A stretch of DNA of 41,107 nucleotides. Origin: Clostridia bacterium (lineage in GTDB: Bacteria; Bacillota; Clostridia; Oscillospirales; CAG-272). The DNA lies in the NCBI GenBank assembly GCA_017463865.1, contig JAFTOI010000014.1, positions 1 through 41,107 of the forward strand, in the 5' to 3' direction. The position numbers were made by a program, and so were the translations under genes. Under the pieces are notes generated by a model. That model had not been told where the DNA came from. It made no database searches and saw nothing but the letters and a program-made list of their open reading frames with translations. Positions 13,404 to 40,935 of this stretch are shown here, one piece after another. Every line of letters starts with the position of its first letter. Position 1 is the stretch's first letter.

Positions 13404-13511
13404 GGGGAACCTCCAAGTCGGGTAATGATTCACGATTGAGCATGCCCTTTCGGCATTTTGTCCAATCCCCATTTTCGGGCGTTTTTCCCGGTGATGGAGA
13501 TGATCGCCGTG

Positions 13512-13684: not shown

Positions 13685-13782
13685 ACCTCGGCCAGCACCA
13701 GAATCTGGAAAAACGGTGAAACTGCCGAATTTGCGGGAAAGACGAAAAATTTGCCCGAAACCCCTTGACAAAAAAGATGGGA

Positions 13783-19823: not shown

Positions 19824-19835
19824 GCGAACCTCCAA

Positions 19836-24763: not shown

Positions 24764-25876
24764 ATGGCAAAAACCAACATTGTCGATTGGACAACAATTA
24801 CCAACTTCGTAATCGACTCCTTCGTCGGTTACGGCATTCCGCGTGAGGATGCGATCATCTGTGCGGATGTTCTGCTGGAGAGTGACAAGCGCGGCATCGA
24901 GTCGCACGGTGTCAACCGCTTCAAGCCGGTCTACCTCGACCGCATCAAGGCCGGTATCCAGAACCCTGTGACCAACTTCGAGATCGTCAAGGAGACTGAG
25001 ACCACCGCGGTTGTCGACGGCCACGACGGCATGGGTCAGGTCATCGGCTACAAGTCGATGCAGATGGCCATTGACAAGGCAAAGAAGTACGGTATGGGTA
25101 TGGTCGTTGTCCGCAACTCCTGCCACTACGGTATTGCCGGCTACTATACCTCCATGGCTGCCAAGCAGGGCTGTGTTGGCCTGACCGGCACCAATGCCCG
25201 CCCCACGGTTGCGCCCACCTTTGGTGTCGAGGGTATGTTCGGTACTAACCCCCTCACCCTCGGTGTTCCCACTGATGAGGCATTCGACTTCAACTTTGAC
25301 GGTGCTACCTCTACCTATCAGAACGGTAAGCTTGAGTACTACGCCCGCATCGGCAAGGATGCTCCCGCAGGCGCACTCGTTGGCCTTGACGGTCAGGCAT
25401 ACGTCGGTTCTGCGGACGACGCACTCAAGACGATGGCACGCGGTGAGGCTGCACTTTGCACCCTCGGCGGCCCCGGCGAAGAGGGCGCAGGCTACAAGGG
25501 CTACGGCTACGCAATGTTCGTTGAGCTGCTTTCCGCTGCACTTCAGGACGGCAACTACGGTAAGGCTCTGACTGGCAAGGGTGAGAATGGCGAGAAGGTT
25601 CCCTTCCATCTGGGTCACTTCTTCATCGCTATCGACACCGATCACTTCCTTGGCGAGGATGCTTGCCGCAAGAAGGCAGGCGAGATCATTCGCGAAGTCC
25701 GCTCGGCAAAGAAGGCTCCCGGTGCTGAGCGAATCTACACCGCAGGCGAGAAGGAATACGAAGTCCGTCTTGCCCGCGAGTCCGGTGTGCCGATCAATGA
25801 GTCTGTCCAGAAGGAGATCGTTGCTGTTCGCGACGAGCTGGGTCTGACCCAGTACAAGTTCCCCTGGGAGGACTGA
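24764..25876 (+). CDS. Ldh2-family malate/L-lactate-type dehydrogenase
   Basis: A 370-residue NAD(P)-dependent 2-hydroxyacid dehydrogenase of the Ldh2/MDG family, unrelated in fold to classical malate dehydrogenase. Family motifs are KRGIESHGVNRF (residues 44-55), NSCHYGIAGYY (about 117-127) with the catalytic His, GTNPLTLGVPT, and GYKGYGYAMFVELL. Members use malate, lactate, sulfolactate or ureidoglycolate. The next genes carry fumarase and fumarate reductase, so malate/oxaloacetate is the likely pair. Codon choice is biased to GGT, GTT and CGT more than in neighbouring genes, suggesting high expression. AGGAAAGG precedes the ATG. A terminator-like hairpin separates it from hdrB; partial read-through would link the two. 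Confidence 0.9.
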   Translation: MAKTNIVDWTTITNFVIDSFVGYGIPREDAIICADVLLESDKRGIESHGVNRFKPVYLDRIKAGIQNPVTNFEIVKETETTAVVDGHDGMGQVIGYKSMQMAIDKAKKYGMGMVVVRNSCHYGIAGYYTSMAAKQGCVGLTGTNARPTVAPTFGVEGMFGTNPLTLGVPTDEAFDFNFDGATSTYQNGKLEYYARIGKDAPAGALVGLDGQAYVGSADDALKTMARGEAALCTLGGPGEEGAGYKGYGYAMFVELLSAALQDGNYGKALTGKGENGEKVPFHLGHFFIAIDTDHFLGEDACRKKAGEIIREVRSAKKAPGAERIYTAGEKEYEVRLARESGVPINESVQKEIVAVRDELGLTQYKFPWED

Positions 25877-25931
25877 TTTCTGTCGGACGTGCGCGGCGCT
25901 GCCCGTTTGCTGCCGTGCATAGAACAATAGG

Positions 25932-25961
25932 AAACGGGTGGCCTGCGGTCGCCCGTTTTCA
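25932..25961 (+). terminator. Possibly leaky terminator after the dehydrogenase gene
   Basis: An 11-bp stem AAACGGGTGGC / GTCGCCCGTTT with two G-T pairs, ending in TTTT. I see no clear promoter between it and hdrB at 26062, so partial read-through is likely. Confidence 0.65.
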
Positions 25962-25971
25962 ACAAACAAAT

Positions 25972-25996
25972 GCCGGGGAGATATCCGCTCCCCGGC
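25972..25996 (+). other. Second hairpin in the dehydrogenase-hdrB gap
   Basis: Perfect 9-bp stem GCCGGGGAG / CTCCCCGGC with a 7-nt loop and no U tract. A further weak stem (CCCC..GTGC/GCAC..GGGG) covers about 25999-26034. These could be mRNA processing or stability structures at the 5' end of the hdr mRNA. Confidence 0.55.
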
Positions 25997-26061
25997 TATC
26001 CCCGCGAGGTGCCGGAATGTGCACCGCGCTGGGGCACAAAACGTGACGAAAGGATAGCAGT

Positions 26062-26853
26062 ATGAAGTACAGTTATTATCCGGGGTGCACGCTGAAGACC
26101 AAGGCGAAGGCGCTTGACGCCTACGCCCGCGCTTCGGCCAAGGCCCTGGGCTTCGAGCTGGAAGAGATCAAGGACTGGCAGTGCTGCGGCGGCGTTTATC
26201 CGCTGGGCGCTGACGAGATCGCGACCAAGCTCTCCTCGGTACGCGCGCTGGCTGACGCCCGCGACCACGGCCAGGAGCTGGTCACCCTCTGCTCGGCTTG
26301 CCACCATGTCATCAAGCGGGTCAACGACGACATGAAGAATGTCGACGACATCCGCACCCGCGCAAACAACTACATGCAGCTCGACACCCCCTACGCCGGC
26401 GAGACCAACGTGCTCCACTTCCTCGAGGTGCTGCGCGACCGCGTCGGCTTTGATGAGCTGAAGAAGAAGGTTGTCAATCCGCTCTCGGGCAAGAAGATCG
26501 GCGCCTACTACGGCTGCCTGCTTCTCCGTCCCAGCGAGATCATGACCTTCGACGATCCCGAGAATCCGAAGATTCTCGAGGATTTCATCCGCGCCATCGG
26601 TGCGGAGCCGGTCGTGTACCCCTACCGCAACGAGTGCTGCGGCGGCTACATCTCGCTCAAGGAGAAGGAGATGGCCGGCCGCATGACCGACACCATCCAG
26701 GCGAGCGCATCGGGCTTCGGTGCCGAGATGCTGATCACGGCATGTCCGCTCTGCCAGTACAACCTGAACCAGACCGTCGACGGCCTGCCGGTGCTTTATT
26801 TCACCGAGCTGCTGGCTGAGGCGCTGGGCGTCAAAGAGGAGGCCATGGCATGA
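26062..26853 (+). CDS. hdrB: Heterodisulfide reductase subunit B homologue (HdrB)
   Basis: A 263-residue protein with two complete CCG domains, each binding a non-cubane [4Fe-4S] cluster in characterised HdrB. Domain 1 uses Cys9, Cys41-Cys42, Cys77 and Cys80; domain 2 uses Cys152, Cys192-Cys193, Cys228 and Cys231. The spacing fits the family pattern. In methanogens HdrB cleaves the CoM-CoB heterodisulfide. In bacteria lacking these thiols the acceptor is usually unknown, often a DsrC-like protein. No DsrC gene is in this operon, and a soluble fumarate reductase follows, so delivery to fumarate is a candidate role. The stop overlaps hdrC (ATGA). Confidence 0.95.
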   Translation: MKYSYYPGCTLKTKAKALDAYARASAKALGFELEEIKDWQCCGGVYPLGADEIATKLSSVRALADARDHGQELVTLCSACHHVIKRVNDDMKNVDDIRTRANNYMQLDTPYAGETNVLHFLEVLRDRVGFDELKKKVVNPLSGKKIGAYYGCLLLRPSEIMTFDDPENPKILEDFIRAIGAEPVVYPYRNECCGGYISLKEKEMAGRMTDTIQASASGFGAEMLITACPLCQYNLNQTVDGLPVLYFTELLAEALGVKEEAMA

Positions 26854-27248
26854 GCAACGTCTCCAAGATCGAAAAGCAGGCCGCTCTCATTCGTGAGATC
26901 AGCGGCGTCAATCCCTACAAATGTATGAAGTGCGGCAAATGCTCGGCAACCTGCCCCGCATTTGACGAGATGGACATCAAGCCCCATCAGTTCGTTTCCT
27001 ATGTCCAGGAGGGCAACATCGCGGCGCTGGCTGAGTCGAAGTCGCTGTGGAAGTGCCTGTCCTGCTTCGCCTGCGTCGAGCGCTGCCCCCGCGATGTCAA
27101 GCCGGCAAAGCTCATCGACGCCGCTCGCCAGATTGTCGAGCGCGAAAAGGGCGGCGACTACCTGATGGCCGACGAGATCCCCACGCTGCTTGATCCCGAG
27201 CTGCCGCAGCAGCTTCTGGTCAGCGCATTCAGAAGATACAGGAGGTAA
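26850..27248 (+). CDS. hdrC: Heterodisulfide reductase subunit C homologue (HdrC)
   Basis: A 132-residue electron-transfer subunit with two [4Fe-4S] ferredoxin sites: Cys25, 28, 31, 35 and Cys69, 72, 75, 79. It links HdrA to HdrB. No membrane segment, so this is the soluble HdrABC type rather than the membrane HdrDE type. It overlaps hdrB by 4 nt and carries the ribosome binding site for hdrA across its own stop codon. Confidence 0.95.
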   Translation: MSNVSKIEKQAALIREISGVNPYKCMKCGKCSATCPAFDEMDIKPHQFVSYVQEGNIAALAESKSLWKCLSCFACVERCPRDVKPAKLIDAARQIVEREKGGDYLMADEIPTLLDPELPQQLLVSAFRRYRR

Positions 27249-27253
27249 GCGGC

Positions 27254-29242
27254 GTGCAGAGAATTGGTGTTTTTGTCTGTCATTGCGGCTCGAACATTGC
27301 CGCAACGGTAGACGTCAAGAAAGTCGTGGAAATGGCCGCGCGTGAGCCCGGCGTCGTCCACGCAGAGGATTACCAGTACATGTGCTCCGAGGCGGGCCAG
27401 GCGAAGATCGCCGCCGCCATCGCCGAGAAGAAGCTGACCGGCATCGTGGTCTGCTCCTGCTCGCCGCGTATGCACGAGGCCACTTTCCGTAAGTGTGCCG
27501 AGCGCGCGGGGCTCAATCCCTACATGGTGGAAATCGCCAACATCCGTGAGCACTGCTCGTGGATCCATAAGAATATGGAAGAGGCAACCGAGAAGGCGGT
27601 CATCCTTGCCCGCGCTGCGATTGCCAAGGTCAACCTCAACGCCCCGCTGAAGCCGGGCGAGAGCCGCGTCACCAAGCGTGCGCTGGTCATCGGCGGCGGT
27701 ATCGCCGGTATCCAGTCGGCGCTTGACATCGCTGACGCCGGCTACGAGGTCGACATCGTCGAGAAGACCCCCTCCATCGGCGGCCGCATGGCACAGCTCG
27801 ATAAGACCTTCCCGACCCTCGACTGCTCGGCTTGTATCCTTACCCCGAAGATGGTTGAGGCGGCCGCGCATGAGAAGATCAACATTTATACGTACAGCGA
27901 AGTGGAGAAGATCTCCGGCTTCGTCGGCGACTTCACCGTCGACATCCGCAAGAAGGCACGCAGCATCGACGCCAACAAGTGTACCGGCTGCGGCGCATGC
28001 CAGGAGAAGTGTCCCTCCAAGAAGAGCCTGAGCGAGTTCAACCGCGGTCTGAACACCCGTTCGGCCATCTACACCCCCTTCGCACAGGCCATCCCGAACG
28101 TTCCGGTCATCGACCGTGAGGCCTGCATCAAGTTTAAGACCGGCAAGTGCGGTATCTGCTCTAAGGTATGTGCCGCCGGCGCCGTTGACTACGAGCAGAA
28201 GGATGAGATCTTCACCGAGAAGTACGGCGCAATCGTCGTGGCCACCGGCTTTGATACCATCAAGCTCGACAAGTACGACGAGTACGCCTACAACCAGTCC
28301 AAGGACGTCATCACCTCGCTCGAGCTCGAGCGCGTCATGAACGCCGCCGGCCCGACCAAGGGTCATCTGGAGCGCCTCTCGGACGGCAAGCACCCCGAGC
28401 ACATCGTGTTCGTGCAGTGCGTCGGCTCCCGCTGCTCGGACGAGCGCGGCAAGCCCTACTGCTCCAAGATCTGCTGCATGTACACCGCAAAGCATGCGAT
28501 GCTCATCCGCGACAAGTACCCGGATGTCAAGGTCACCGTCTTCTACATCGACGTGCGTACCCCCGGTAAGAACTTCGATGAGTTCTATCGCCGCGCAGTC
28601 GAGGAGTACGGCGTCAACTACATCAAGGGCCAGGTCGGTAAGGTTGCGCCCCAGCCCGACGGCAGCCTGCTCGTTCAGGCGTCCGACCTGCTGGACAACA
28701 AGCAGATCAAGATGAAGGCTGACATGGTCGTCCTCGCGACCGCCATCGAGCCCGATCCGTCGGTCCGCCCGCTGGCTACCATGCTGACCGCCAGCATCGA
28801 CACCAACAACTTCCTCACCGAGGCTCACCCGAAGCTTCGTCCCGTCGAGTCCCCGACCGCCGGTATCTTCCTCTCCGGTGTCTGCCAGGGTCCGAAGGAT
28901 ATCCCCGAGACGGTCGCTCAGGCCGGCGCCGCTGCCGTCAAGGCAATCGGCCTGCTGGCCAAGGATAAGCTGACCACCAACCCCTGCACCGCAAAGGCAG
29001 ACGAGCTGCTCTGCAACGGCTGCTCGACCTGTGCCAATGTTTGTCCCTACGGTGCGATCTCCTATGAGGTCAAGCTCATCAACGACCACGGTGTCCGTGA
29101 GGATCGCCGCATCGCCGTTGTCAACAATGCCCTCTGCCAGGGCTGCGGTGCTTGTACCGTCGCCTGCCCGTCGGGTGCGATGGACCTGCAGGGCTTCTCG
29201 AACAGACAGATCATCGCGGAGGTGGATGCAATATGCCGTTAA
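27254..29242 (+). CDS. hdrA: Heterodisulfide reductase subunit A homologue (HdrA), bifurcating flavoprotein
   Basis: A 662-residue FAD and iron-sulfur protein, the flavin-bifurcating core of HdrABC complexes. It starts at GTG 27254 with GGAGG 8 nt upstream. The N-terminal domain has VCHCG (Cys9, Cys11) and VVCSCSPRMHE. The FAD fold carries LVIGGGIAGIQSALD (144-158) and a GGRMAQLDKTFPTLDCSAC stretch. An inserted ferredoxin-like region has clusters at Cys243-253 and Cys291-306. Two more [4Fe-4S] sites lie at the C-terminus, near 587-600 and 626-640. In known complexes HdrA splits electron pairs between ferredoxin and HdrB. All essential cysteine groups appear present and no selenocysteine is needed. 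Confidence 0.95.
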   Translation: MQRIGVFVCHCGSNIAATVDVKKVVEMAAREPGVVHAEDYQYMCSEAGQAKIAAAIAEKKLTGIVVCSCSPRMHEATFRKCAERAGLNPYMVEIANIREHCSWIHKNMEEATEKAVILARAAIAKVNLNAPLKPGESRVTKRALVIGGGIAGIQSALDIADAGYEVDIVEKTPSIGGRMAQLDKTFPTLDCSACILTPKMVEAAAHEKINIYTYSEVEKISGFVGDFTVDIRKKARSIDANKCTGCGACQEKCPSKKSLSEFNRGLNTRSAIYTPFAQAIPNVPVIDREACIKFKTGKCGICSKVCAAGAVDYEQKDEIFTEKYGAIVVATGFDTIKLDKYDEYAYNQSKDVITSLELERVMNAAGPTKGHLERLSDGKHPEHIVFVQCVGSRCSDERGKPYCSKICCMYTAKHAMLIRDKYPDVKVTVFYIDVRTPGKNFDEFYRRAVEEYGVNYIKGQVGKVAPQPDGSLLVQASDLLDNKQIKMKADMVVLATAIEPDPSVRPLATMLTASIDTNNFLTEAHPKLRPVESPTAGIFLSGVCQGPKDIPETVAQAGAAAVKAIGLLAKDKLTTNPCTAKADELLCNGCSTCANVCPYGAISYEVKLINDHGVREDRRIAVVNNALCQGCGACTVACPSGAMDLQGFSNRQIIAEVDAICR

Positions 29243-29679
29243 ACGAAAAGACCGGGGAATTCACCCCCAAAATCGTCGCCTTCTGCTGCAACTGGTGCAG
29301 CTATGCGGGCGCAGACCTCGCGGGCTCGAGCCGCCTGGCCTACCCGGCTGAGGTAAAGATCATCCGCGTGCCCTGCTCCTGCCGCGTCAACCCCATGTTC
29401 ATCCTCCGTGCCTTTGAGAAGGGCGCGGACGGCGTCATCCTCTGCGGCTGCCACCCCGGCGACTGCCACTACAGCACCGGCAACTACTACGCACGCCGCC
29501 GCATGACGCTGCTCTTCTCGATGCTCGACTACATCGGCGTTGAGAAAGGCCGTACCCGCGTCGAGTGGGTATCTGCCGCTGAGGGCGTGAAGTTCTCGAC
29601 CACCATGAACGAGTTCGCGGCCAAGATCCATGAGCTGGGCCCGAACGTGAGACTGGAGGACCTGAGATGCAAGAACTGA
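29233..29679 (+). CDS. flxD: FlxD/MvhD-type electron-transfer subunit
   Basis: A 148-residue [2Fe-2S] protein of the MvhD/FlxD family that passes electrons into HdrA. The cysteines are Cys18-Cys19-x2-Cys22 (FCCNWCSYAGAD), Cys48 and Cys50 (PCSCR), and Cys71, Cys73, Cys78 (CGCHPGDCHY). The start ATG 29233 lies 10 nt inside hdrA, preceded by GGAGGTGG. In methanogens MvhD ties hydrogenase to Hdr; in bacteria with FlxABCD it ties an NADH-oxidising module to Hdr. The next three genes are that module. Confidence 0.94.
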   Translation: MPLNEKTGEFTPKIVAFCCNWCSYAGADLAGSSRLAYPAEVKIIRVPCSCRVNPMFILRAFEKGADGVILCGCHPGDCHYSTGNYYARRRMTLLFSMLDYIGVEKGRTRVEWVSAAEGVKFSTTMNEFAAKIHELGPNVRLEDLRCKN

Positions 29680-30644
29680 TCAACCGCGCAAAAGAACTGC
29701 TGGCTGACGGCACCGTCGTCCGCGTGCTGGGCTGGCGCAAAGGCGATATGGACTACAACCCTGAGGTCGCCTACTTCAACTCGGCCGAGGAGCTGGACAA
29801 CTTTGTCTACGACGGCTTCTGCGGCGCGAACCTGTCCAAATACATGATCGAGGCGTCCAAGCTGGAGGGCAAGACTCTGGTCTTCCTCAAGCCCTGCGAC
29901 ACCTACAGCTTCAACCAGCTGCTCTGCGAGCACCGTGTTGACCGCGACAAAGCCTACATCATCGGTGTCGGCTGCCGCGGCAAGCTGGATATCGAAAAGG
30001 TCAAGGCCCAGGGCATCAGCGGTATCACCGCTGTCTCGGGCACCGAGCTCGATGGCCCCGATTCCATCAAGGTAAGCACTATCTACGGTGACTTCGACGT
30101 CGCGTACACCGACGCCATGCTCGAGCGCTGTCATGTCTGCAAGGGCAAGGAGCACAAGATCTACGACGAGCTGATCGGCGAGTCGAAGGATACCCACGAC
30201 ATGGACCGCATGGCAGCCGTTGCCGCCATCGAGGCCATGAGCCCGACCGAGAAGTTCGCTTACTTCCAGGCTGAGCTGTCCAAGTGCATCCGCTGCAACG
30301 CATGCCGCAACGTATGCCCCGCCTGCTCCTGCCGCAAGTGCGTCTTCGACAGCACTAAGTTCGACTCCCAGCAGAAGGCCAACGTCGACTCCTTCGAGGA
30401 GAAGATGTTCCACATCATCCGCGCCTTCCACGTCGCAGGCCGCTGTACCGACTGCGGCGAATGCAGCCGCGTCTGCCCGCAGGGCATTCCGCTGCACCTC
30501 TTCAACCGCAAGTTCATCAAGGACATCGACGAGCTGTACGGCAAGTACCAGGCCGGTGAGACCGCAGATCAGCGCGCTCCCCTGGTCAACTTCACCTTCG
30601 GCGACGCCGAGCCCAGCATCGTCAATGAGAGGGGGTCGAAATAA
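29667..30644 (+). CDS. flxC: FlxC-like iron-sulfur protein
   Basis: A 325-residue soluble protein of the 4Fe-4S dicluster type found in FlxBC and hydrogenase beta/sulfite-reductase A subunits. Clusters: Cys207, 210, 213, 217 (CIRCNACRNVCP) and Cys260, 263, 266, 270 (CTDCGECSRVCP). Extra cysteines PACSCRKC (218-225) and ERCHVCKG (154-160) could hold another centre. The N-terminal half has LKPCDTYSFNQLL, a CoF420-hydrogenase/FrhB-like feature. It overlaps flxD by 13 nt and flxB by one nt. It would move electrons between FlxA and FlxD. Confidence 0.85.
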   Translation: MQELINRAKELLADGTVVRVLGWRKGDMDYNPEVAYFNSAEELDNFVYDGFCGANLSKYMIEASKLEGKTLVFLKPCDTYSFNQLLCEHRVDRDKAYIIGVGCRGKLDIEKVKAQGISGITAVSGTELDGPDSIKVSTIYGDFDVAYTDAMLERCHVCKGKEHKIYDELIGESKDTHDMDRMAAVAAIEAMSPTEKFAYFQAELSKCIRCNACRNVCPACSCRKCVFDSTKFDSQQKANVDSFEEKMFHIIRAFHVAGRCTDCGECSRVCPQGIPLHLFNRKFIKDIDELYGKYQAGETADQRAPLVNFTFGDAEPSIVNERGSK

Positions 30645-31699
30645 TGGCCATGATGAAGATCACCCGCGACGCTCTGCCGGCACTCTATGCCCGCATCGCC
30701 GCTGAGCAGAGTCTGATCCTGCCCGTCAAGACGGCCGGCCAGACCAACTTCGGCCTCTGGAACGAGACCGCCGACGTCGACCTGTACGCCCTCAAGACCG
30801 TCAAGTCGGCAAAGGACGCCTTCTTCCCCCAGAGCGAGACCCTCTACACCTGTACCACCGAGGATAAGAAGATCACCATCACCCCCGAGAAGCTGACCGA
30901 CGAGCAGTTCGTCGTCTTCGGCATCAAGGCCTGCGACGTGCAGGGCATCAAGGTGCTGGATAAGGTCTTCCTCTCCGCTCCCGTTGATTCCTTCTACGCT
31001 GCCCGCCGCGCCCACGGCACCATCGTTGCCATGGCCTGCTCGGCACCCAGCGAGTCCTGCTTCTGCCATGCCTTCGGCATTGATCCCACCGAGCCCGCTG
31101 ACGCTGACGTCGTCATCTGGCCGGTTGGCGACACCCTCTGCTGGAAGGCCATGACCGAGAAGGGCGAAGCCCTGACCGCGCTCGCCGGCGACCTCCTCAC
31201 CGCGGCTGACGCTGCCGATGAGACCGCGCTCGAGAACGCGAAGGCCTTCACCAAGTCTGTCATGCAGAAGCTCCCCTATGCCAACCTCACCCTCGAGGGC
31301 TGGGGCGCCGACAAGACCGACGAGAAGTTCAACTCTCCCGTCTGGGACGACCTGTACAAGGGCTGCCTTGCCTGCGGCACCTGCACCTTCGTCTGCCCCA
31401 CCTGCCAGTGCTACGACATCAAGGACTACAACACCGGTAAGGGCGTCCAGCGCTATCGCTGCTGGGACAGCTGCATGTACTCCGACTTCACCATGATGGC
31501 GCACGGCAACAACCGTAATTCTCAGATGCAGCGCTTCCGTCAGCGCTTCATGCATAAGCTGGTCTACTTCCCGACCAACAACGATGGCATGTTCTCCTGC
31601 GTCGGCTGCGGCCGCTGCGTCGACAAGTGCCCGGCGTCGCTGAACATCGTCAAGGTCATCCGTGCCTTCCAGAAAGCTGAAAAGGGGGAAACGAAATGA
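30644..31699 (+). CDS. flxB: FlxB-like iron-sulfur protein (hydrogenase beta / sulfite reductase A type)
   Basis: A 351-residue protein similar to subunit A of anaerobic sulfite reductase and to the HydB subunit of sulfhydrogenase. Two [4Fe-4S] sites: Cys241, 244, 247, 251 (CLACGTCTFVCP) followed by CQCYD, and Cys319, 322, 325, 329 (CVGCGRCVDKCP). IKACDVQGI near residue 94 and SESCFC near 137 are shared with the family. It occurs in Flx sets immediately before FlxA, as here. Start ATG 30644 shares a base with the flxC stop; the stop overlaps flxA by 4 nt. Confidence 0.88.
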   Translation: MAMMKITRDALPALYARIAAEQSLILPVKTAGQTNFGLWNETADVDLYALKTVKSAKDAFFPQSETLYTCTTEDKKITITPEKLTDEQFVVFGIKACDVQGIKVLDKVFLSAPVDSFYAARRAHGTIVAMACSAPSESCFCHAFGIDPTEPADADVVIWPVGDTLCWKAMTEKGEALTALAGDLLTAADAADETALENAKAFTKSVMQKLPYANLTLEGWGADKTDEKFNSPVWDDLYKGCLACGTCTFVCPTCQCYDIKDYNTGKGVQRYRCWDSCMYSDFTMMAHGNNRNSQMQRFRQRFMHKLVYFPTNNDGMFSCVGCGRCVDKCPASLNIVKVIRAFQKAEKGETK

Positions 31700-32556
31700 G
31701 CGAATGCACCTGCCACTGCCATGACAATTACACCCTTGACACCCTGATCCCCATGGTGGGCGTCATCACCGACATCCGCGATGAGACCCCCGATGTCAAG
31801 ACCTTCCGCGTCAACGCGCCCGAGGGCGGCAAGCTCTTCGAGCACATGCCCGGTCAGTGCGCCATGCTCTGCGCGCCGGGTGTGAGCGAGGCGATGTTCT
31901 CTATCACCTCCTCTCCGACGAATAAGGAATACCAGGAATTCAGCATCAAGAAGTGCGGCGAGCTGACCGACTACCTGCACAGCCTGCAGGTCGGCGATCA
32001 GATCACCGTCCGCGGCCCCTACGGCAACCACTTCCCGGTCGAGACCGAGCTGAAGGGCAAGAATCTGCTCTTCATCGCCGGCGGTATCGGCCTGGCTCCT
32101 CTCCGTTCGGTCATCAACTATGTCCTCGACAACCGCGCCGATTATGGCCGCGTCGACATCCTCTACGGCTCCCGCTCGGCTGACGATCTCGTTCAGCGCA
32201 AGGAGATCGAGGAGGTCTGGTCGAAGACCGAGGGCGTCAACGTCCACCTGACCATCGACCGCGAGCAGGAGGGCTGGGACGGCCACGTCGGCTTCGTTCC
32301 CGCTTACCTCAAGGAGCTGAACTTCCAGAATGACTGCATCGCTCTGCTGTGCGGTCCTCCGATCATGATCAAGTTCTGTCTCGCAGCCCTCAAGGAGATG
32401 GGCTTCTCGACCGAGCAGGTCTACACCACCCTCGAGCTGCGCATGAAGTGCGGCGTGGGTAAGTGCGGCCGCTGCAACATCGGTTCCAAGTACGTCTGCA
32501 AGGACGGCCCCGTCTTCCGCTTTGACGAGGTCGACGAGCTGCCGCCCGAGTATTGA
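31696..32556 (+). CDS. flxA: FlxA-like FAD/NAD(P)-binding oxidoreductase
   Basis: A 286-residue NADH-oxidising flavoprotein of the ferredoxin reductase/PyrK/sulfhydrogenase-gamma type. The FAD domain has AMFSITSSP (67-75). The nucleotide site has IAGGIGLAPLRSVI (127-140) and LLCGPPIMI (217-225). A C-terminal [2Fe-2S] loop uses Cys252, 257, 260 and 268 (CGVGKCGRC..VC). A Cys/His-rich tip ECTCHCHD (residues 3-10) is not typical. It would bring NADH electrons into FlxBC, FlxD and HdrA. Last gene of the overlapping hdr-flx set; an 88-bp gap follows. Confidence 0.92.
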   Translation: MSECTCHCHDNYTLDTLIPMVGVITDIRDETPDVKTFRVNAPEGGKLFEHMPGQCAMLCAPGVSEAMFSITSSPTNKEYQEFSIKKCGELTDYLHSLQVGDQITVRGPYGNHFPVETELKGKNLLFIAGGIGLAPLRSVINYVLDNRADYGRVDILYGSRSADDLVQRKEIEEVWSKTEGVNVHLTIDREQEGWDGHVGFVPAYLKELNFQNDCIALLCGPPIMIKFCLAALKEMGFSTEQVYTTLELRMKCGVGKCGRCNIGSKYVCKDGPVFRFDEVDELPPEY

Positions 32557-32593
32557 TCGCGGCGAATCTGTCCCGTATACATGATTTTGTGCC

Positions 32594-32613
32594 CCCGCCG
32601 CCCGCGCGGCGGG
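32594..32613 (+). other. Intercistronic hairpin between flxA and frdB
   Basis: Perfect 8-bp GC stem CCCGCCGC / GCGGCGGG with a 4-nt loop in the only sizeable gap of the hdr-flx-frd run. There is no U tract, so it is not a terminator. It could set relative expression by protecting one half of the mRNA. Confidence 0.5.
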
Positions 32614-32644
32614 ACGGCAACGATTGAATAAGGAGTACCATCTA

Positions 32645-33319
32645 ATGGAATCAATGGTGAATATCTACCTGTACGGCAAAAAGTACAGCGTACCCGCCGA
32701 CCTGACCATCATGACTGCGATGGAATACGCCGGCTATACCCTCAAGCGCGGATGCGGCTGCCGCCACGGCTTCTGCGGCGCATGTGCCACCATCTACCGC
32801 ATCAAGGGCAAGAATGAGCTCAAGACCTGCCTCGCCTGCCAGACCCAGGTCGAGGAGGGCATGTACATCGCGACCATCCCCTTCTATCCCACCGACAAGC
32901 GCATCTACGACATCAACGACATCAAGCCCACCGAGCAGATCATGATGGAGCTCTACCCCGAGATCTATTCCTGCATCGGCTGCAACGCCTGCACCAAGGC
33001 CTGCCCGCAGGGCATCAATGTCATGCAGTACATCGCCTACGCACAGCGCGGCGACTTCAAGGCCTGCGCTGACGAGTCCTTCGACTGCGTCGGCTGCGGC
33101 TGCTGCGCGACCCGCTGCCCCGCCGGCATCTCGCATCCCATGGTGGGCGAGCTGGCCCGCCGCCTCAACGGCAAGTACCTCGCACCCGAGACCGAGCACC
33201 TGCGTGAGCGTGTCGAGGAGATCCGTCACGGTGCATACGACGCCCTCATCGAGCAGATCATGGGCAAGCCGATCACCGAGATGAAAGAGCTCTACAACAC
33301 CCGCGAGATCGAGAAATAA
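32645..33319 (+). CDS. frdB: Soluble fumarate reductase/succinate dehydrogenase iron-sulfur subunit
   Basis: A 224-residue partner of the flavoprotein downstream. The N-terminal plant-type [2Fe-2S] domain uses Cys39, 44, 47 and 62 (CGCRHGFCGAC). Two [4Fe-4S] sites follow: Cys110, 113, 116, 120 (CIGCNACTKACP) and Cys148, 151, 154, 158 (CVGCGCCATRCP). The standard SdhB [3Fe-4S] and quinone-site pattern is absent. So is the C-terminal CCG domain found in methanogen TfrB (thiol:fumarate reductase), but a separate HdrB with CCG domains is encoded in the same run. Start 32645 has AGGAG 9 nt upstream. No membrane anchor gene is present. Confidence 0.9.
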   Translation: MESMVNIYLYGKKYSVPADLTIMTAMEYAGYTLKRGCGCRHGFCGACATIYRIKGKNELKTCLACQTQVEEGMYIATIPFYPTDKRIYDINDIKPTEQIMMELYPEIYSCIGCNACTKACPQGINVMQYIAYAQRGDFKACADESFDCVGCGCCATRCPAGISHPMVGELARRLNGKYLAPETEHLRERVEEIRHGAYDALIEQIMGKPITEMKELYNTREIEK

Positions 33320-33331
33320 GGAGGGAAAACA

Positions 33332-34936
33332 ATGCTTACACCTGAAATGCTTGAATCTATCAAAAAGGTAGAGGCTACCCGCGCCGCGCGCATGGGCGTT
33401 GAGCCCCGCCGCATGACGGCTGACGAGAAGGACGCCCTCCTCAAGGAGTTCCACCCCGACTATCGTGCCGCAGGCTTTGCTGAGATCCAGGTCGGCCCCA
33501 ACAAGGGCGAGAAGGCTCCGCTTGAGCTGAGCAACCTGATCCACTCCAACTCCCGCCTCTACGGCAAGAACATCGACCTCGACAAGGTCGAGTACGACGT
33601 TGACGTCCTCGTCATCGGTGCCGGCGGCGCAGGCTGCTCGGCTGCCATCGAGGCACATGAGGCCGGCGCGAATGTGATGATCGTCACCAAGCTCCGTATC
33701 GGTGACGCCAATACCATGATGGCTGAGGGCGGTATCCAGGCTGCCGACAAGCCCAACGACTCGCCTGTCCAGCACTACATCGACGCCTTCGGCGGCGGCC
33801 ACTTCGCCGCTCGTCCCGAGCTGCTCCGCCGCCTTGTCATGGAGGCGCCCGACGCCATCAACTGGCTCGGCGACCTCGGTGTTATGTTCGACAAGCAGAC
33901 CGACGGCACCATGGTCACCACCCACGGCGGCGGTACCTCCCGCAAGCGTATGCACGCCTGCAAGGACTACACCGGTGCTGAGATCATGCGTACCCTCCGC
34001 GATGAGGTCATCAACCGTCAGATCCCCGTGGTCGAGTTCACCTCGGCTGTCGAGCTGATCAAGGACTCCAATGGCCGCGTCGCAGGTGCCGTTCTCCAGA
34101 ACATGGAGACCGATGATTACCTCGTCGCTCGTGCAAAGACTGTCGTTATCGCCACCGGCGGTGCGGGCCGCCTGCACTACCAGGGCTTCCCGACCTCCAA
34201 CCACTACGGCGCTACCGCTGACGGTCTGGTCATGGGCTACCGCGCAGGCGCACCCCTGCTCTATCAGGACACCATCCAGTACCACCCGACCGGTGCTGCT
34301 TTCCCGTCCCAGATCTTCGGTGCACTGGTCACCGAGAAGGTCCGTTCGATCGGCGCAATGCTGGTCAACGTCGACGGTGAGGCCTTCATGCACCCGCTGG
34401 AGACCCGCGACGTGTCGGCTGCATCCATCATCCGTGAGTGCACCGCACGCGGCAAGGGCGTTCCGACGCCCGGCGGCGGCATGGGCATCTGGCTCGACAC
34501 GCCCATGATCGAGATGCTCCACGGCGAGGGCACCATCGAGAAGAGAATCCCCGCGATGATGCGTATGTACATGAACTACGGCATCGACATGCGCACCACG
34601 CCTATCCTGATCTACCCGACCCTGCACTACCAGAACGGTGGTCTGGAGATCGGCGGCGAGGGCTTCACCAAGGCCATCGACAACCTGCTGGTTGCCGGTG
34701 AGGCTGTCGGTGGTATCCACGGCCGCAACCGTCTGATGGGCAACTCGCTGCTCGACATCATCGTCTTCGGTCGTCAGGCCGGTAAGGCAGCTGCTGCCCG
34801 TGCCAAGGAAGTTGAGCTGGGCAAGATGACCCTGTCTCACATTGACGATTACGCCAAGATGCTCTCCGACGCCGGCATCGACACCGGCGATGTCTCGCCG
34901 CTGCTCCTGCCCAGATACGCCCGTCACGAGAGATAA
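33332..34936 (+). CDS. frdA: Fumarate reductase flavoprotein subunit
   Basis: A 534-residue catalytic subunit reducing fumarate to succinate. The FAD motif VIGAGGAGCSAAIEA begins only near residue 94; the first 88 residues are an N-terminal extension not present in ordinary FrdA. Active-site elements are all seen: YHPTG, VTEKVRS, TLHYQNGG and HGRNRLMGNS. In the segment that carries the covalent FAD-His in membrane FrdA, the sequence is DANTMMAEGG with Asn127 in the His position, so FAD is probably bound non-covalently, as in L-aspartate oxidase. Aspartate oxidase itself is unlikely, since frdB is adjacent and no nadA or nadC is near. GGAGGG precedes the ATG. Confidence 0.92.
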   Translation: MLTPEMLESIKKVEATRAARMGVEPRRMTADEKDALLKEFHPDYRAAGFAEIQVGPNKGEKAPLELSNLIHSNSRLYGKNIDLDKVEYDVDVLVIGAGGAGCSAAIEAHEAGANVMIVTKLRIGDANTMMAEGGIQAADKPNDSPVQHYIDAFGGGHFAARPELLRRLVMEAPDAINWLGDLGVMFDKQTDGTMVTTHGGGTSRKRMHACKDYTGAEIMRTLRDEVINRQIPVVEFTSAVELIKDSNGRVAGAVLQNMETDDYLVARAKTVVIATGGAGRLHYQGFPTSNHYGATADGLVMGYRAGAPLLYQDTIQYHPTGAAFPSQIFGALVTEKVRSIGAMLVNVDGEAFMHPLETRDVSAASIIRECTARGKGVPTPGGGMGIWLDTPMIEMLHGEGTIEKRIPAMMRMYMNYGIDMRTTPILIYPTLHYQNGGLEIGGEGFTKAIDNLLVAGEAVGGIHGRNRLMGNSLLDIIVFGRQAGKAAAARAKEVELGKMTLSHIDDYAKMLSDAGIDTGDVSPLLLPRYARHER

Positions 34937-34954
34937 GAGAGGGACGGATAGACA

Positions 34955-36268
34955 ATGGAGTTTATTGCAAACCTGATCAATCCCGGTTCGGCAGCCGTTG
35001 TGCTGATGGGTGCGTTTTTCATCACCTTCCTCGGCTACTGTCTGGGCAGAATTTCGATCAAGGGCGTTTCCCTCGGAACGGCAGGCGTCTTCCTGATGGC
35101 ACTGCTGTTCGGCTACCTTTTCACGATCCCCGGCCTGCAGAACATTCCGGTTCTCGCTAAGTTCTATATCGCAGATGCGTCTGCATCTGCGATAGACTCG
35201 TACGGCTTTATCGGAGACATCGGTCTTGTGCTTTTCGTGACCTCGGTCGGCTCGATCGCGGGCCCGAACTTCTTCCGCGATCTGAAGAAGAACGCAAAGA
35301 CCTATCTCCCCATGGGCGTGATCATCATCGTGATCGGTTCGCTTGCGGCAGCCGCATTCGCAGCCATCCCCGGCATCGGCTCGGCTTTCGCGAGTGGTGT
35401 CCTCTCGGGCGCACTCACCTCGACCCCTGCTTTCTCCGCTGCAAAGGAGATCGCGGGTGACCAGGCGGCAATGGTTTCGCTCGGTCAGGCAATCACCTAT
35501 CCCTTCGGCGTCGTAGGCGTCGTTCTCTTCGTGCAGATCATGCCCAAGCTTCTCAAGGCAGACATGGCAAAGGAAAGAGCGCTCATTGCCGTTTCCTCCA
35601 AGCCCAAGGCCCAAAAGGCCGTTGATGCCGAGGCTGCCGCAGATGCCTGCGATATGCCCGCAGAAGAAACCGACACCAAGAAGCGCTTTGATATCGACGG
35701 CTTCGGCCTCGCTGCGTTCGGCATTGCTGTGGTGCTCGGTATTCTGCTCGGCTCGATCAAGATCCCGCTCACCGGCGCGGGCTATGACGGCTCCTGCTTC
35801 TCGCTGGGTATGACCGGCGGTCCGCTGATCATGGCGCTCATTCTGGCGCACTTCGGCCATATCGGTCCGCTCAACATGAGAATCAACACGAACCTGCTCA
35901 AGATCTTCCGTGAGTTCGGTCTGGTCCTCTTCCTGCTCGGCGCAGGTGTTGAGGGCGGCGTTCAGCTCGTCGAACAGATCCAGAACTCGCAGTACGGCCT
36001 CATGATCGTTCTTTACGGTTTCGTGGCAGGTGTGATCATTACCATCATTCCCATGGTGGTCGGTTACATCTTTGCGCGAAAGATCTGCAAGCTTCCCCTG
36101 CTCAACACCCTTGGTTCGATCACCGGCGGCATGACTTCGACGCCCGCACTCGGTACCCTGATCTCGGTTGCCGAGACCGACGATGTTGCAGGCGCCTATG
36201 CATCGACCTATCCGATCGCACTTGTGCTGATCGTGTTCGCTTGCCAGATCATTGGTATTGTAATTTAA
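34955..36268 (+). CDS. AspT/YidE-type (AAE family) carrier
   Basis: A 437-residue integral membrane protein with about 10 to 11 hydrophobic helices in two related halves. Each half carries the family motif: LSGALTSTPAF (150-160) and ITGGMTSTPALG near 395-408. The AAE family includes the aspartate:alanine exchanger AspT and succinate carriers. Typical members have TrkA_C (RCK) domains between the halves; here only a hydrophilic loop of about 35 residues (205-240) is left. Position between fumarate reductase and fumarase suggests exchange of succinate for malate, fumarate or aspartate. The ribosome binding site is AGAGAGG, weaker than elsewhere in the operon. Confidence 0.85.
   Translation: MEFIANLINPGSAAVVLMGAFFITFLGYCLGRISIKGVSLGTAGVFLMALLFGYLFTIPGLQNIPVLAKFYIADASASAIDSYGFIGDIGLVLFVTSVGSIAGPNFFRDLKKNAKTYLPMGVIIIVIGSLAAAAFAAIPGIGSAFASGVLSGALTSTPAFSAAKEIAGDQAAMVSLGQAITYPFGVVGVVLFVQIMPKLLKADMAKERALIAVSSKPKAQKAVDAEAAADACDMPAEETDTKKRFDIDGFGLAAFGIAVVLGILLGSIKIPLTGAGYDGSCFSLGMTGGPLIMALILAHFGHIGPLNMRINTNLLKIFREFGLVLFLLGAGVEGGVQLVEQIQNSQYGLMIVLYGFVAGVIITIIPMVVGYIFARKICKLPLLNTLGSITGGMTSTPALGTLISVAETDDVAGAYASTYPIALVLIVFACQIIGIVI
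35167..35194 (+). other. Perfect 12-bp inverted repeat inside the carrier gene
   Basis: TATCGCAGATGC / GCATCTGCGATA with a GTCT loop, inside the codons for residues 71-80 of the carrier (YIADASASAI). It is a strong mRNA hairpin in coding sequence. Confidence 0.8.
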
Positions 36269-36292
36269 TTTAATTTTAGGAGGAATGTCACA

Positions 36293-37135
36293 ATGCGTGA
36301 GATTCAAACCCAGCAGATCATCGATGTGATCGAAAAGCTTTGCATCGATGCCAACAACCATCTGCCTGAGGATGTCAAGTGCGCCATCAAGAACTGCCGC
36401 GCCTGCGAGGACGGCCAGATCGCCTGCGGCGTGCTCGACAACATCATCGAGAACTTCGAGATCGCAGACAACGAGAATCTGCCCATCTGCCAGGACACCG
36501 GCATGGCATGCGTGTTCCTTGAGATCGGCCAGGATGTGCACATCGTCGGCGGCGACCTGACCGAAGCCATCAACGAGGGCGTGCGCCGCGGCTACAAGAA
36601 CGGCTACCTGCGCAAGTCTGTCGTGGCTGACCCGGTTCGCCGCGGCAACACCGGCGACAACACCCCTGCCATGATCTACACCGAGATTGTTCCCGGTGAC
36701 AAGATCAAGATCACCCTTGGTCCGAAGGGCTTCGGCAGCGAGAACATGAGCGCTGTCCGTATGTTCAAGCCCTCCGCTGGTCTGCAGGGCATCAAGGACT
36801 TCATCATCGAGACGGTCGAGGCTGCCGGCCCCAACCCCTGCCCGCCCATCGTCATCGGCGTCGGCATCGGCGGCACCTTCGACAAGGCTGCCCTGCTTGC
36901 CAAGAAGGCCATCATGCGTCCCCTCGACACCTCCAACCCCGATCCGTACTACGCTGACCTCGAGAAGGAAATGCTCGAGAAGGTCAACCAGCTCGGCATC
37001 GGCCCCCAGGGCTTCGGCGGCAAGACCACCGCTATCGGCCTGAACATTGAGGTTCTGCCCACCCACATCGCAGGTATGCCGTGCGCAATCAACATCAACT
37101 GCCACGTTACCCGCCACAAGACGGAGGTAATCTAA
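36293..37135 (+). CDS. fumA: Class I fumarate hydratase, alpha subunit
   Basis: A 280-residue oxygen-sensitive [4Fe-4S] hydratase subunit interconverting malate and fumarate with the beta subunit. Cluster ligands are Cys66 (CQDTGMA), Cys183 (NPCPPIVIG) and Cys270 (CHVTRH at the C-terminus). GSENMSAVRMFKPSAG is typical of the family. Two-subunit enzymes of this type also include L-tartrate dehydratase; fumarase is preferred because fumarate reductase is encoded in the same run. AGGAGG lies upstream. The last codons hold the ribosome binding site of the beta gene. Confidence 0.92.
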   Translation: MREIQTQQIIDVIEKLCIDANNHLPEDVKCAIKNCRACEDGQIACGVLDNIIENFEIADNENLPICQDTGMACVFLEIGQDVHIVGGDLTEAINEGVRRGYKNGYLRKSVVADPVRRGNTGDNTPAMIYTEIVPGDKIKITLGPKGFGSENMSAVRMFKPSAGLQGIKDFIIETVEAAGPNPCPPIVIGVGIGGTFDKAALLAKKAIMRPLDTSNPDPYYADLEKEMLEKVNQLGIGPQGFGGKTTAIGLNIEVLPTHIAGMPCAININCHVTRHKTEVI

Positions 37136-37136
37136 C

Positions 37137-37697
37137 ATGGAAAAGAAGAGAGTAACCCTCCCCCTCACCGAGGAGCTTGCGAAGACCCTGAAGGCCGGCG
37201 ACGAAGTTCTGCTGACCGGTACCATCTACACCTCGCGCGACGCTGGTCACAAGCGCATGTGCGAGGCTCTCGCCCGCGGCGAGAAGCTGCCCTTCAACCC
37301 CGAGAATGCGACCATCTACTACGTTGGCCCGACCCCTGCTAAGCCGGGTCAGGTCATCGGTTCGGCAGGCCCCACCACCTCCGGCCGTATGGACGCATAC
37401 GCACCGACCATGATGAGTGTCGGCGCTCGCGGTATGATCGGTAAGGGCGCACGCCTCCCCGAGGTCGTTGACGCCATGAAGAAGTACAGCGGCGTTTACT
37501 TTGGTGCCATTGGCGGTGCAGGCGCACTGCTCGCTCGCTGCATCAAGAAGTGCGAGCTGGTCGCCTACGAGGATCTGGGCGCCGAGGCGCTGCGCGAGCT
37601 GTACGTTGAGGATATGCCGCTGGTTGTCATCATCGACAGCGAGGGCAACAACCTCTACGAGCTTGGCCGTCAGGATTATCTGGCATCCAAGAAGTAA
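37137..37697 (+). CDS. fumB: Class I fumarate hydratase, beta subunit
   Basis: A 186-residue partner of the alpha subunit, equivalent to the C-terminal domain of single-chain class I fumarases. Motifs are TGTIYTSRDAGHKR near residue 28, SAGPTTSGRMD, and MIGKGAR. It starts one base after the alpha stop with GGAGGT at 37123-37128. Last gene of the operon and followed by a clear terminator. The symbol is used for beta subunit and does not imply orthology to the E. coli FumB isozyme. Confidence 0.92.
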   Translation: MEKKRVTLPLTEELAKTLKAGDEVLLTGTIYTSRDAGHKRMCEALARGEKLPFNPENATIYYVGPTPAKPGQVIGSAGPTTSGRMDAYAPTMMSVGARGMIGKGARLPEVVDAMKKYSGVYFGAIGGAGALLARCIKKCELVAYEDLGAEALRELYVEDMPLVVIIDSEGNNLYELGRQDYLASKK

Positions 37698-40700: not shown

Positions 40701-40935
40701 CGCGCATGGCGCTCTCGAGCCGGGCACGGATCTCGCCGTCGTCGAGCCCATCCTCGCGCAGGGCGGCGAGGTCGGCCTCGCTGCCGGGCAGGCGGATAAT
40801 CTTGATGCGGCAGGATGAGCCGTCGGTGTCGGTCGCGGCGTAGGTAGCGGCATAGCTGCCGCGGCCGAGCTCACGGTCAAGGGTGATCCCGCGAAGCAGT
40901 GCGGTGTATTCTCGGTTGGCTTGTTCGATTGTCAT
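37780..40935 (-). CDS. PASTA-domain receptor (pseudo)kinase with Ig-like and BspA leucine-rich repeats
   Basis: A 1051-residue membrane protein. Residues 1-300 are a PknB/Stk-like kinase fold with G-loop GRGSYA (24-29), Lys45 and YMAPEL (199-204). The catalytic loop reads HGNLKPSN (158-165): the HRD Asp is Asn160. The DFG motif is DFA (178-180). Activity is therefore doubtful. A Pro/Ala-rich stretch follows, then one membrane helix (434-455), a Thr-rich linker (471-546) and four PASTA domains (547-607, 613-675, 680-741, 745-803), which bind peptidoglycan or lipid II in PrkC/PknB. A BIG2-like domain (about 808-882) and BspA-type leucine-rich repeats (about 890-1030) end the protein. This tail is not found in ordinary PrkC. 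No PrpC phosphatase gene is adjacent. GGAGG precedes the ATG. Confidence 0.9.
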   Translation of the reverse strand: MTIEQANREYTALLRGITLDRELGRGSYAATYAATDTDGSSCRIKIIRLPGSEADLAALREDGLDDGEIRARLESAMRGIVAQIDRLRRLDVPSIMAIEDRRLVEGRSGELILLVRCEPLTIFDDFAPAHDITANDILNLGLATCAALEAAGEVGVLHGNLKPSNLFVAPDGTVCVADFAEERLLGQALDSVSFDSLQYMAPELQEDAAMSAGTDLYALGIVLYSLFNNRCIPFLGRADADELAIRRAILQRSEDDILPPPANADENVATMLNRACALDPKRRYPSAAAFADDLRDCLLDEKDDYVVLPATETIYEILPLRSGEPAEPAGMPMTAPAAPMPGENEENDAVAVIPPAPAPTPARPSAGAYAAGSYAGGYAGGYAANSAAIRAAQSQPMAAPTPPPSPAPDPVAPDAPDEDDYYTDEPEEGEGTKRLLLVLAAILALLLLFGGIVWGINALTGIGGDDAKPGSTETSGTVDRTTTDAPETNAPITTDAVTTDNTTTTSPTTTDEPATTTAPSTTAALATTAAPTTTAAPVTTAAPTPKMPALTGKTYDEATAALTGLGVVYSKTEAYSDSVAAGQIISQSIAAGASVPAGTTVSLTVSLGREQTTVPSLVGQTQTAAEQALAERNLAAAITTRYDDTAAAGLVLAQSTAANAKVDVGTTVTLTVSLGQRAITLPNFVGMTRAEAEKFVTDNEMTHVSWQSAASTAEKDTVYAQSIAAGTAVGPRAELTLYISLGGSLTVPSLTGMDETTAAAILRGQGYVPAIVYQTANTTGVLSTSPAAGTALAAGETVTLTVATRDSAASKLSLPMGDLHLGFAETVTLQISGAQGRALSYRSSDSKVATVDGDGKVTANAVGQALITVTAGSESAQCYVNVSASNSDFTTTVSGSGCIITAYRGDDANVVVPDRINGLAVTAIADSAFSGKAITSIRLPATVTSIGASAFEGCPHLTTVSLPASLRSIGARAFASCGVLRSVDIPASVTSIGEAAFERCYALEAAYLPAGLTQIGARAFRYCSALTLYVPSGSPAHDYAKANGLTVKTIG

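Follow-up and report, generated by a model that had tools for sequence, protein, structure and literature searches.

Crotonyl-CoA, caffeyl-CoA and disulfides are known high-potential acceptors of flavin-based electron bifurcation, and fumarate would join them if the function proposed here for a gene cluster of gut Clostridia is true. The cluster, hdrBCA-flxDCBA-frdBA-carrier-fumAB, occupies positions 26062–37697 (+ strand) of a 41,107-nucleotide (nt) contig of a Clostridia bacterium (JAFTOI010000014.1, assembly GCA_017463865.1), the whole of which is called the window below and which forms contig C4 of a 1.91-Mb, 48-contig assembly that is 67% complete (G000). Its seven-subunit input part, FlxABCD-HdrABC, is also found in Desulfovibrio vulgaris, which has no FrdAB there; this was reportedly described by Ramos in 2015, the acceptor being a disulfide, thought to be DsrC. 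The thiol:fumarate reductase of methanogens (TfrAB) shares with the present cluster a soluble FrdA-like subunit and an FrdB-like protein fed from CCG clusters. However, in TfrB the CCG domain is fused to the FrdB-like part, whereas here HdrB is a separate protein and FrdB is free of CCG, and the lack of such a fusion rules out membership among TfrAB. The 8-methylmenaquinol:fumarate reductase SdhABE, a quinol-fed, membrane-attached enzyme, likewise has an HdrB-like protein (SdhE) next to the FrdAB pair. Membership there is also ruled out: the HdrB of the window reaches 147 bits on the SdhE model, far under the cut-off of 500, and 16 of the 17 frd-bearing genomes considered below, the window's among them, have no UbiA (a prenylquinone-forming family) over cut-off. 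The classical membrane quinol:fumarate reductases and succinate dehydrogenases are ruled out by the want of an anchor, of a [3Fe-4S] site and of the histidine that binds FAD covalently. A further parallel is the caffeyl-CoA reductase-EtfAB of Acetobacterium woodii, which performs NADH-fed bifurcation to ferredoxin coupled to the Rnf pump without a quinone, though with different enzymes and a different acceptor.

A system of this kind has already been proposed in print (2019–20), and the present cluster adds a member from gut Clostridia. PMC7282089 describes a "succinate operon" in the heat-loving relative Pseudoclostridium thermosuccinogenes, in which the genes for Flx-Hdr and fumarate reductase are joined by those for fumarase and a putative succinate transporter, and cites a 2019 preprint (Koendjbiharie and van Kranenburg) for a fumarate reductase potentially involved in bifurcation. 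In its passages on the operon, the proposed ferredoxin-coupled fumarate reduction is assumed rather than measured; the operon was up about 4-fold under CO2 limitation, not significantly for every subunit, and the authors see a fit in an older study, where headspace H2 left almost no succinate. The likeness to the window cluster is one of gene content, and by locus tags the fumarase lies at the opposite end of that cluster. Similarly, according to PMC6315080 (2019), tubeworm symbionts and Thioflavicoccus have korABCD and tfrAB scattered among flxABCD-hdrABC, and a FlxABCD-HdrABC-TfrAB complex is suggested. There too fumarate reductase genes are conserved beside Flx-Hdr, but they are named TfrAB and belong to a reductive tricarboxylic acid cycle gene cluster with a 2-oxoglutarate:ferredoxin oxidoreductase, the comparison being by description. 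The new elements here are how tightly the genes are linked and how they co-occur in gut Clostridia, their apparent repeated assembly in differing orders, the pairing of Rnf with a lack of UbiA, and an HdrCB-only variant as a natural contrast. These bear on a wider question, since succinate is a major gut metabolite and energy conservation by fumarate reduction in quinone-less Clostridia has been unclear.

Linkage and co-occurrence in gut Clostridia

The cluster is a real, conserved unit, widespread in gut Clostridia, that most likely encodes a quinone-independent bifurcating fumarate reductase. A search of genome contigs with FrdA (E-value 1e-3) yielded at least 572 confirmed stretches, which may include distant flavoproteins, and from these the best 80 were fetched, with FrdA 78–95% identical to that of the window. 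The order hdrB-hdrC-hdrA-flxD-flxC-flxB-flxA-frdB-frdA, on one strand, is kept in 57/57 loci where the sequence upstream of frdA spans 7.8 kb or more; this excludes chance, and given the identity range of the fetched loci it holds for close relatives. Fumarase genes follow 3' of frdA in 54 of the 63 loci that extend 3.5 kb or more past this gene, the antiporter alone in 8 and neither in 1. The nearest relatives among the matches listed are "Clostridia bacterium" records from the colon of goat and roe deer (FrdA 95% and 94% identical). Record names at the fetched loci include Lachnospiraceae and Oscillospiraceae, and the operon-bearing records include Blautia luti (L094, with the set hdrBCA-flxDCBA-frdBA-fumAB), Blautia schinkii (L096), Faecalicatena contorta (L093) and [Clostridium] asparagiforme (L095).

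In the window, thirteen + strand genes lie at 24764–37697: ldh2, hdrB, hdrC, hdrA, flxD, flxC, flxB, flxA, frdB, frdA, the antiporter gene, fumA and fumB. From hdrB onwards, neighbouring genes range from a 13-nt overlap to a gap of 24 nt (hdrA and flxD overlap by 10 nt), with the exception of flxA-frdB, which are 88 nt apart, or 67 nt if frdB starts at a TTG; ldh2 stands 185 nt before hdrB. This spacing suggests that the twelve genes form a single transcript. The sequence-only reading of this DNA had given the content and order of the run correctly but counted its twelve genes as eleven, and had described them as mostly overlapping or within 30 nt, which holds save for flxA-frdB. It had also placed an Ldh2 dehydrogenase just upstream, which is indeed there but outside the conserved unit. 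The hdr-flx-frd linkage on which it had built proves to be conserved and is not confined to one strain.

Co-occurrence was followed in 59 relatives including the window's genome (FrdA at E 1e-60, FlxC at E 1e-25), a set that overlaps the previous one in genomes, e.g., L022 is a contig of G002 and L023 a contig of G004. FrdA is present in 18 and FlxC in 19 of them, in single copy per genome; all 18 FrdA genomes also have FlxC, and 40 have neither (Fisher p = 2.9e-14, with kinship ignored). In 17 of the 18, frdA and flxC lie about 3.5 kb apart on the same contig, the operon of G004 being split by contig ends. The FlxC gene without a companion FrdA (G016) is on a contig that stops inside flxB, so its frd genes may be unassembled. 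Thus Flx-Hdr is never seen apart from the Frd operon in these 59 genomes, with G016 undecided, and it is very probable that Hdr-Flx and FrdAB function together.

Subunits and proposed electron path

The full FlxABCD-HdrABC set of seven subunits sits in one cluster, all of its genes on the + strand. FlxA (31696–32556; 286 amino acids, aa; PF00970, PF00175, PF10418), with NAD(P)H-, FAD- and iron-sulfur-binding domains, is the predicted entry subunit that binds NAD(P)H and FAD. FlxB (30644–31699; 351 aa), a sulfhydrogenase-beta/AsrA-like Fe-S protein (PF17179) with matches below cut-off to the ShyB/HydB/AsrA models, and FlxC (29667–30644; 325 aa), an Fe-S protein of the Fer4 families whose C-terminal part resembles formate dehydrogenase beta chains (e.g., 7bkb_E), were assigned via related families and the conserved order, the model library holding no entry named for either. 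FlxD (29233–29679; MvhD/FlpD type; PF02662, 183 bits), read from an ATG start with an upstream TTG at 29152 also open, is thought to link FlxABC to HdrA. The last (27254–29242; 662 aa), an FAD and [4Fe-4S] protein, matches the HdrA of the solved complex 5odc over its whole length with 687 bits, has a mean column identity of 90% over 14 sequences, and is found in a genome search as one full-length copy in its own assembly; it is the predicted site of bifurcation. HdrC (26850–27248; 132 aa) matches Fer4 dicluster families and HdrC models, with two [4Fe-4S] sites whose 8 cysteines are invariant in 14 sequences. HdrB (26062–26853; 263 aa; PF02754), the predicted exit of the high-potential electrons towards FrdB, has 10/10 cysteines of the two non-cubane CCG cluster sites, invariant in 14 sequences, and all ten also recur in 13/13 HdrB proteins from three cluster types.

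On the receiving side, FrdB (32645–33319; 224 aa from an ATG start, with an alternative TTG at 32624) combines a [2Fe-2S] region with two CxxCxxCxxxC sets, invariant in 15 sequences. It reaches 30.7 bits on the SdhB/FrdB model (cut-off 88); the [3Fe-4S] pattern was not found in it, two full four-cysteine sets standing in its place, and neither the CCG domain (PF02754) nor a membrane domain was found. A membrane anchor gene is likewise missing among the thirteen genes, of which the sole recognised membrane protein is the antiporter. These results uphold the earlier statements that the reductase has neither an anchor nor an SdhB-type [3Fe-4S] site and that the CCG domains reside in a separate HdrB. 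No gene fusion, of HdrB to FrdB or otherwise, occurs in the reading frames of loci L004–L101. The C-terminal half of FrdB aligns with HdrC in hhalign at a probability of 97.1%, mostly through the cysteine pattern. FrdA (33332–34936; 534 aa; PF00890, the fumarate-reductase flavoprotein family) is extended at its N-terminus by about 86 residues, and a domain search found no match in it to the usual C-terminal domain of the family. When aligned to Escherichia coli SdhA (1nek) it keeps the substrate and acid residues H318, R338, H432 and R467, and has an asparagine (N127) at the position of the covalent-FAD histidine. The fumarate-site residues and Asn127 are invariant in 15 sequences with identity down to 64%.

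The cluster probably encodes a soluble, cytosolic fumarate reductase that draws on NADH and bifurcates electrons to ferredoxin, the energy being conserved through Rnf. FlxA would accept hydride from NADH and FlxBCD would relay the electrons to the FAD of HdrA, which would split each pair, sending one electron to ferredoxin and the other to HdrC. From HdrC the electron would cross HdrB by way of its two non-cubane clusters, enter FrdB and reach FrdA, whose FAD, held non-covalently, would reduce fumarate. The overall reaction would be 2 NADH + oxidised ferredoxin + fumarate -> 2 NAD+ + reduced ferredoxin + succinate. With redox potentials of −320 mV for NADH, −420 to −500 mV for ferredoxin and +30 mV for fumarate, this sum reaction computes to about −33 to −48 kJ/mol. 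Rnf would pass the ferredoxin electrons back to NAD+ while pumping ions, so that the net process would be the quinone-free reduction of fumarate by NADH to succinate with energy conserved; fumarate might come by way of a GTP-type phosphoenolpyruvate carboxykinase (PEPCK), malate dehydrogenase and FumAB, and the antiporter may export succinate. Here we infer complex formation, HdrB-FrdB transfer, bifurcation, stoichiometry, transport and the malate dehydrogenase step. That the reaction reduces ferredoxin through flavin bifurcation is likely, and the odds lean modestly towards HdrB passing its electrons directly to FrdB, for which the fused CCG domain of TfrB and the HdrB-like SdhE offer precedents.

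Energy context and distribution across the phylum

The energy context was surveyed in 17 frd-bearing genomes chosen by hand, nine from the window's order and eight via the named loci, the E-value limit for RnfC being 0.001 here and 1e-40 for the 34 distant genomes treated further below; counts refer to matches over the curated cut-offs. RnfC is over cut-off in 14/17. In contrast, UbiA is over cut-off in 1/17, with 14/14 controls positive, and had no match in G000 (67% complete) or in eight tested relatives; the UbiA family occurs beyond the makers of menaquinone. The classical SdhB/FrdB model is exceeded in 1/17, namely Blautia luti (G454, the genome of L094), which besides its Hdr-Flx-Frd operon has an SdhB-type protein at C95:133616-134257 (107 bits). 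PEPCK is over cut-off in 17/17, being of the GTP type in 8, the window's genome included, and of the ATP type in 9, where the call in G455 is a 66-bit match only. In G029 the frd genes, of which frdA lies at 44482-46059, are directly followed by a GTP-type PEPCK gene (C65:42549-43655).

Beyond the near relatives, the FrdB profile finds 39 of 398 genomes across the phylum, all at E ≤5.6e-80 with no others at 1e-25, and the matches lie in frames of 225–320 aa, which leave no space for a full HdrB. FlxC is found in 139/398 (E 1e-25), and weaker FlxC-like genes stand beside frdB in seven FrdB genomes further to those with close FlxC matches. The FlxC-like matches in several genomes, e.g., G136, G219 and G451, read through one TGA and others through one TAG; perhaps the profile overruns a shorter protein there, or recoding is at work. 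Regions were fetched for 34 of the other 38 FrdB genomes (leaving out G370, G245, G388 and G221) and typed by hdr genes on the same strand within 9 kb, while other neighbours, i.e., malic enzyme, pyruvate carboxylase, the methylmalonyl-CoA pathway and cytochrome-like proteins, were named from the sequences by eye and not by family searches. Full Hdr-Flx is present in 5, hdrC-hdrB-frdB(-frdA) without HdrA or Flx in 5, hdrA-flxD-flxC-like in 7 and no recognised hdr gene in 17. The second and third types were each sampled from two families. Among the 17 hdr-linked regions hdrB is seen in 15, the other two (L158 and L161) being truncated on that side, and in 9 it abuts the frd pair, 5 times directly before frdB and 4 times directly after frdA, which hints at a contact between HdrB and FrdB; in the five cases with hdrB before frdB, only hdrC is present besides. 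In the hdrA-flxD-flxC-like type frdB adjoins the flxC-like gene.

The clusters with HdrC and HdrB only (L141, L151, L152, L156 and L168) occur in genomes with UbiA and without RnfC; they look nearer to SdhABE than the window cluster does and perhaps represent a quinol-fed split form akin to the methylmenaquinol:fumarate reductase. The hdrA-flxD-flxC-like-frdBA clusters (L153, L155, L158–L161 and L169) have no recognised FlxA or FlxB, most also have a longer hdrA-like gene of about 760–1100 aa (in L155 the frame has 1495 aa), and they could possibly specify another bifurcating fumarate reductase. In L146, L162, L163 and L165 frdBA stands beside apparent membrane proteins with HdrC-like Fe-S motifs, two of them apparently including a cytochrome-b-like portion when read by eye. 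Counted by type in the distant genomes, RnfC and UbiA are present in 5/5 and 3/5 of the full Hdr-Flx-Frd type, 0/5 and 5/5 of the hdrCB-frdBA type, 7/7 and 5/7 of the hdrA-flxD type, 7/8 and 5/8 of the malic-enzyme type, 3/3 and 1/3 of the pyruvate-carboxylase type, 4/5 and 5/5 of the membrane/cytochrome type, and 0/1 and 1/1 of the region with nothing recognised nearby (G121). Thus bifurcating-type clusters go with Rnf, and the HdrCB-only type goes with a quinone-type enzyme and no Rnf, a pattern seen in few families.

In a tree of 52 FrdB+FrdA rows, the members linked to full Hdr-Flx are spread over three clades and show the three orders hdrBCA-flxDCBA-frdBA, frdBA-hdrBCA-flxDCBA and hdrCBA-flxDCBA-frdBA. 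A single clade for this linkage is rejected (p-AU 0.00065, quick tree). One gain followed by two losses could also account for the three changes on the tree, although the difference in gene order favours repeated assembly. FrdAB may thus be seen, tentatively and at somewhat less than even chance for the picture as a whole, as a plug-in fumarate-reducing head that is fed, where such a module is present, by an HdrB/HdrC-type module: a quinol-fed HdrCB in Rnf-less genomes with UbiA, and an NADH-fed bifurcating HdrABC-FlxABCD in Rnf genomes. The latter would be the ordinary succinate route, a cytosolic fumarate respiration, of quinone-less gut Clostridia, assembled at least three times, and published ATP yields of succinate formation in such bacteria, e.g., for Blautia luti, would be too low; if so, those of common gut bacteria would require revision.

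Several observations weigh against a dedicated, Rnf-coupled, bifurcating fumarate reductase. At E 1e-25, a FlxC match within about 7 kb of FrdB is confined to 6 of the 39 genomes, one being the window's own, and in four of the 39 FlxC is missing altogether. In half of the distant regions (17/34) no hdr gene was recognised in the vicinity, though a few of these have short flanks (L137, L138, L157 and L167, e.g., end 1–3 kb from frdBA, making hdr absence there less sure); their neighbours are malic enzyme or methylmalonyl-CoA genes in 8, pyruvate carboxylase in 3, membrane Fe-S, cytochrome-b-like or cytochrome-c-like proteins in 5 and nothing recognised in 1, and they count against FrdAB as a dedicated Hdr-Flx subunit. 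The notion that FrdAB always accompanies Hdr-Flx is true in the window's relatives and the gut Clostridia seen and fails phylum-wide. In the window's own cluster type frdB adjoins flxA and not hdrB, and the AlphaFold2 models are of low confidence (pLDDT 64.8 for FrdA and 51.7 for FrdB) and uninformative on contacts. RnfC is under cut-off in the window's 67%-complete assembly, in G029 (195 bits, partial) and in G051 (228 bits, cut-off 246), and since Rnf is common in non-Hdr types too its link to the cluster is weak on its own. The UbiA matches in the 17 frd-bearing genomes amount to the one homologue over cut-off and one weak match below it. The classical SdhB of B. luti means that the fumarate reductase activity published for it is not surely that of the operon enzyme. 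Lowering the redox potential of P. thermosuccinogenes cultures with Na2S acted opposite to H2, which the authors of PMC7282089 call confusing. In the open-access literature no report was found of a purification or enzyme assay of an Hdr-Flx-Frd complex. To that extent the sequence-only statement that no characterised complex of this composition was known stands in the literature searched, although the idea was already in print for P. thermosuccinogenes and the tubeworm symbionts. Of its functional proposals, the coupling to Hdr-Flx, the independence of quinone and the ferredoxin route to energy are well supported by the survey. FrdAB is not dedicated to Hdr-Flx, given the other neighbours seen phylum-wide.

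Alternatives and neighbouring genes

One alternative is an indirect coupling, wherein HdrABC-FlxABCD would bifurcate from NADH to ferredoxin and to a dithiol carrier, be it a DsrC-like protein or a small thiol, which would then feed FrdAB as in the thiol:fumarate reductase of methanogens. CCG sites in known Hdr reduce disulfides, and the HdrB of the window retains both of them; moreover, the NCBIfam model nearest to FrdA is TfrA (324 bits, cut-off 718). However, FrdB has no CCG domain with which to oxidise a thiol, and no thiol carrier was recognised among the twelve genes from hdrB to fumB, the rest of the genome not having been searched. Thus, this coupling appears unlikely.

Direct transfer could also occur without bifurcation, i.e., Flx-Hdr would send both electrons of NADH to FrdAB and leave ferredoxin unreduced, in the manner drawn for Blautia luti. 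PMC12773636 assumes an "NADH-dependent fumarate reductase", with NADH drawn as donor, and reports a crude-extract activity of 504 mU/mg on glucose in a methyl viologen assay and a high transcription of frdAB; nowhere in its main text do "hdr" or "heterodisulfide" appear. The operon is found in B. luti at locus L094. Against such a plain reductase, Hdr-Flx with HdrA is a costly outfit for a simple NADH oxidase, HdrA matches its counterpart in solved Hdr complexes end to end, and Rnf accompanies Hdr-Flx-Frd in most genomes (including all five distant ones), which together render it improbable.

Flow in the reverse direction, with succinate oxidation driven by confurcation with ferredoxin in the service of succinate or propionate breakdown, finds some room in the eight distant genomes with frdBA beside apparent malic enzyme and/or methylmalonyl-CoA genes, where either direction is possible. 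Loss of the covalent-FAD histidine in E. coli FrdA abolishes succinate oxidation and spares fumarate reduction, so the asparagine at this position would favour fumarate reduction over succinate oxidation; with PEPCK in the window's genome and its relatives and their gut origin, reverse flow seems very improbable for the window cluster. A last alternative, that FrdA reduces another enoate or oxidises aspartate, with fumarase and carrier on a separate route, has in its favour that FrdA also matches L-aspartate oxidase models (at most 260 bits, under their cut-offs) and that the carrier family includes aspartate:alanine antiporters. It is nonetheless scarcely credible, since the fumarate-site residues are invariant and fumarase genes so commonly follow frdA.

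The carrier (34955–36268, +; PF06826, TIGR01625 over cut-off) belongs by its domains to the AspT/YidE-YbjL antiporter family and not to the Dcu/Dct C4 carriers, so the earlier label "C4 carrier" was too specific; it perhaps moves succinate or another C4 acid. It is followed by the alpha (fumA, 36293–37135, +; PF05681, NF004885 over cut-off) and beta (fumB, 37137–37697, +; PF05683, NF005310 over cut-off) subunits of an Fe-S fumarase. At the other end, ldh2 (24764–25876, +; PF02615) codes for an Ldh_2-family malate/L-lactate dehydrogenase that is perhaps an NAD-linked malate dehydrogenase; it was found in 0/52 loci with 9 kb or more of sequence before frdA (E 1e-5) and in 0/9 further regions, and is thus a mere neighbour here.

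Promoter and terminator scans of the window gave a signal about that of the shuffled expectation, and a Rex operator pattern had zero matches across it. A frame at 12696–13985 (−) with Put_DNA-bind_N and CoA_binding domains codes for a Rex-like redox repressor. Adjoining the 3' end of the operon, a 1051-aa frame (37780–40935, −) shows an odd mix of a Ser/Thr kinase, PASTA, Big_2 and BspA-type leucine-rich repeats, and elsewhere in the window a Serpin-family protein (198 bits) is encoded at 18267–19835 (−).

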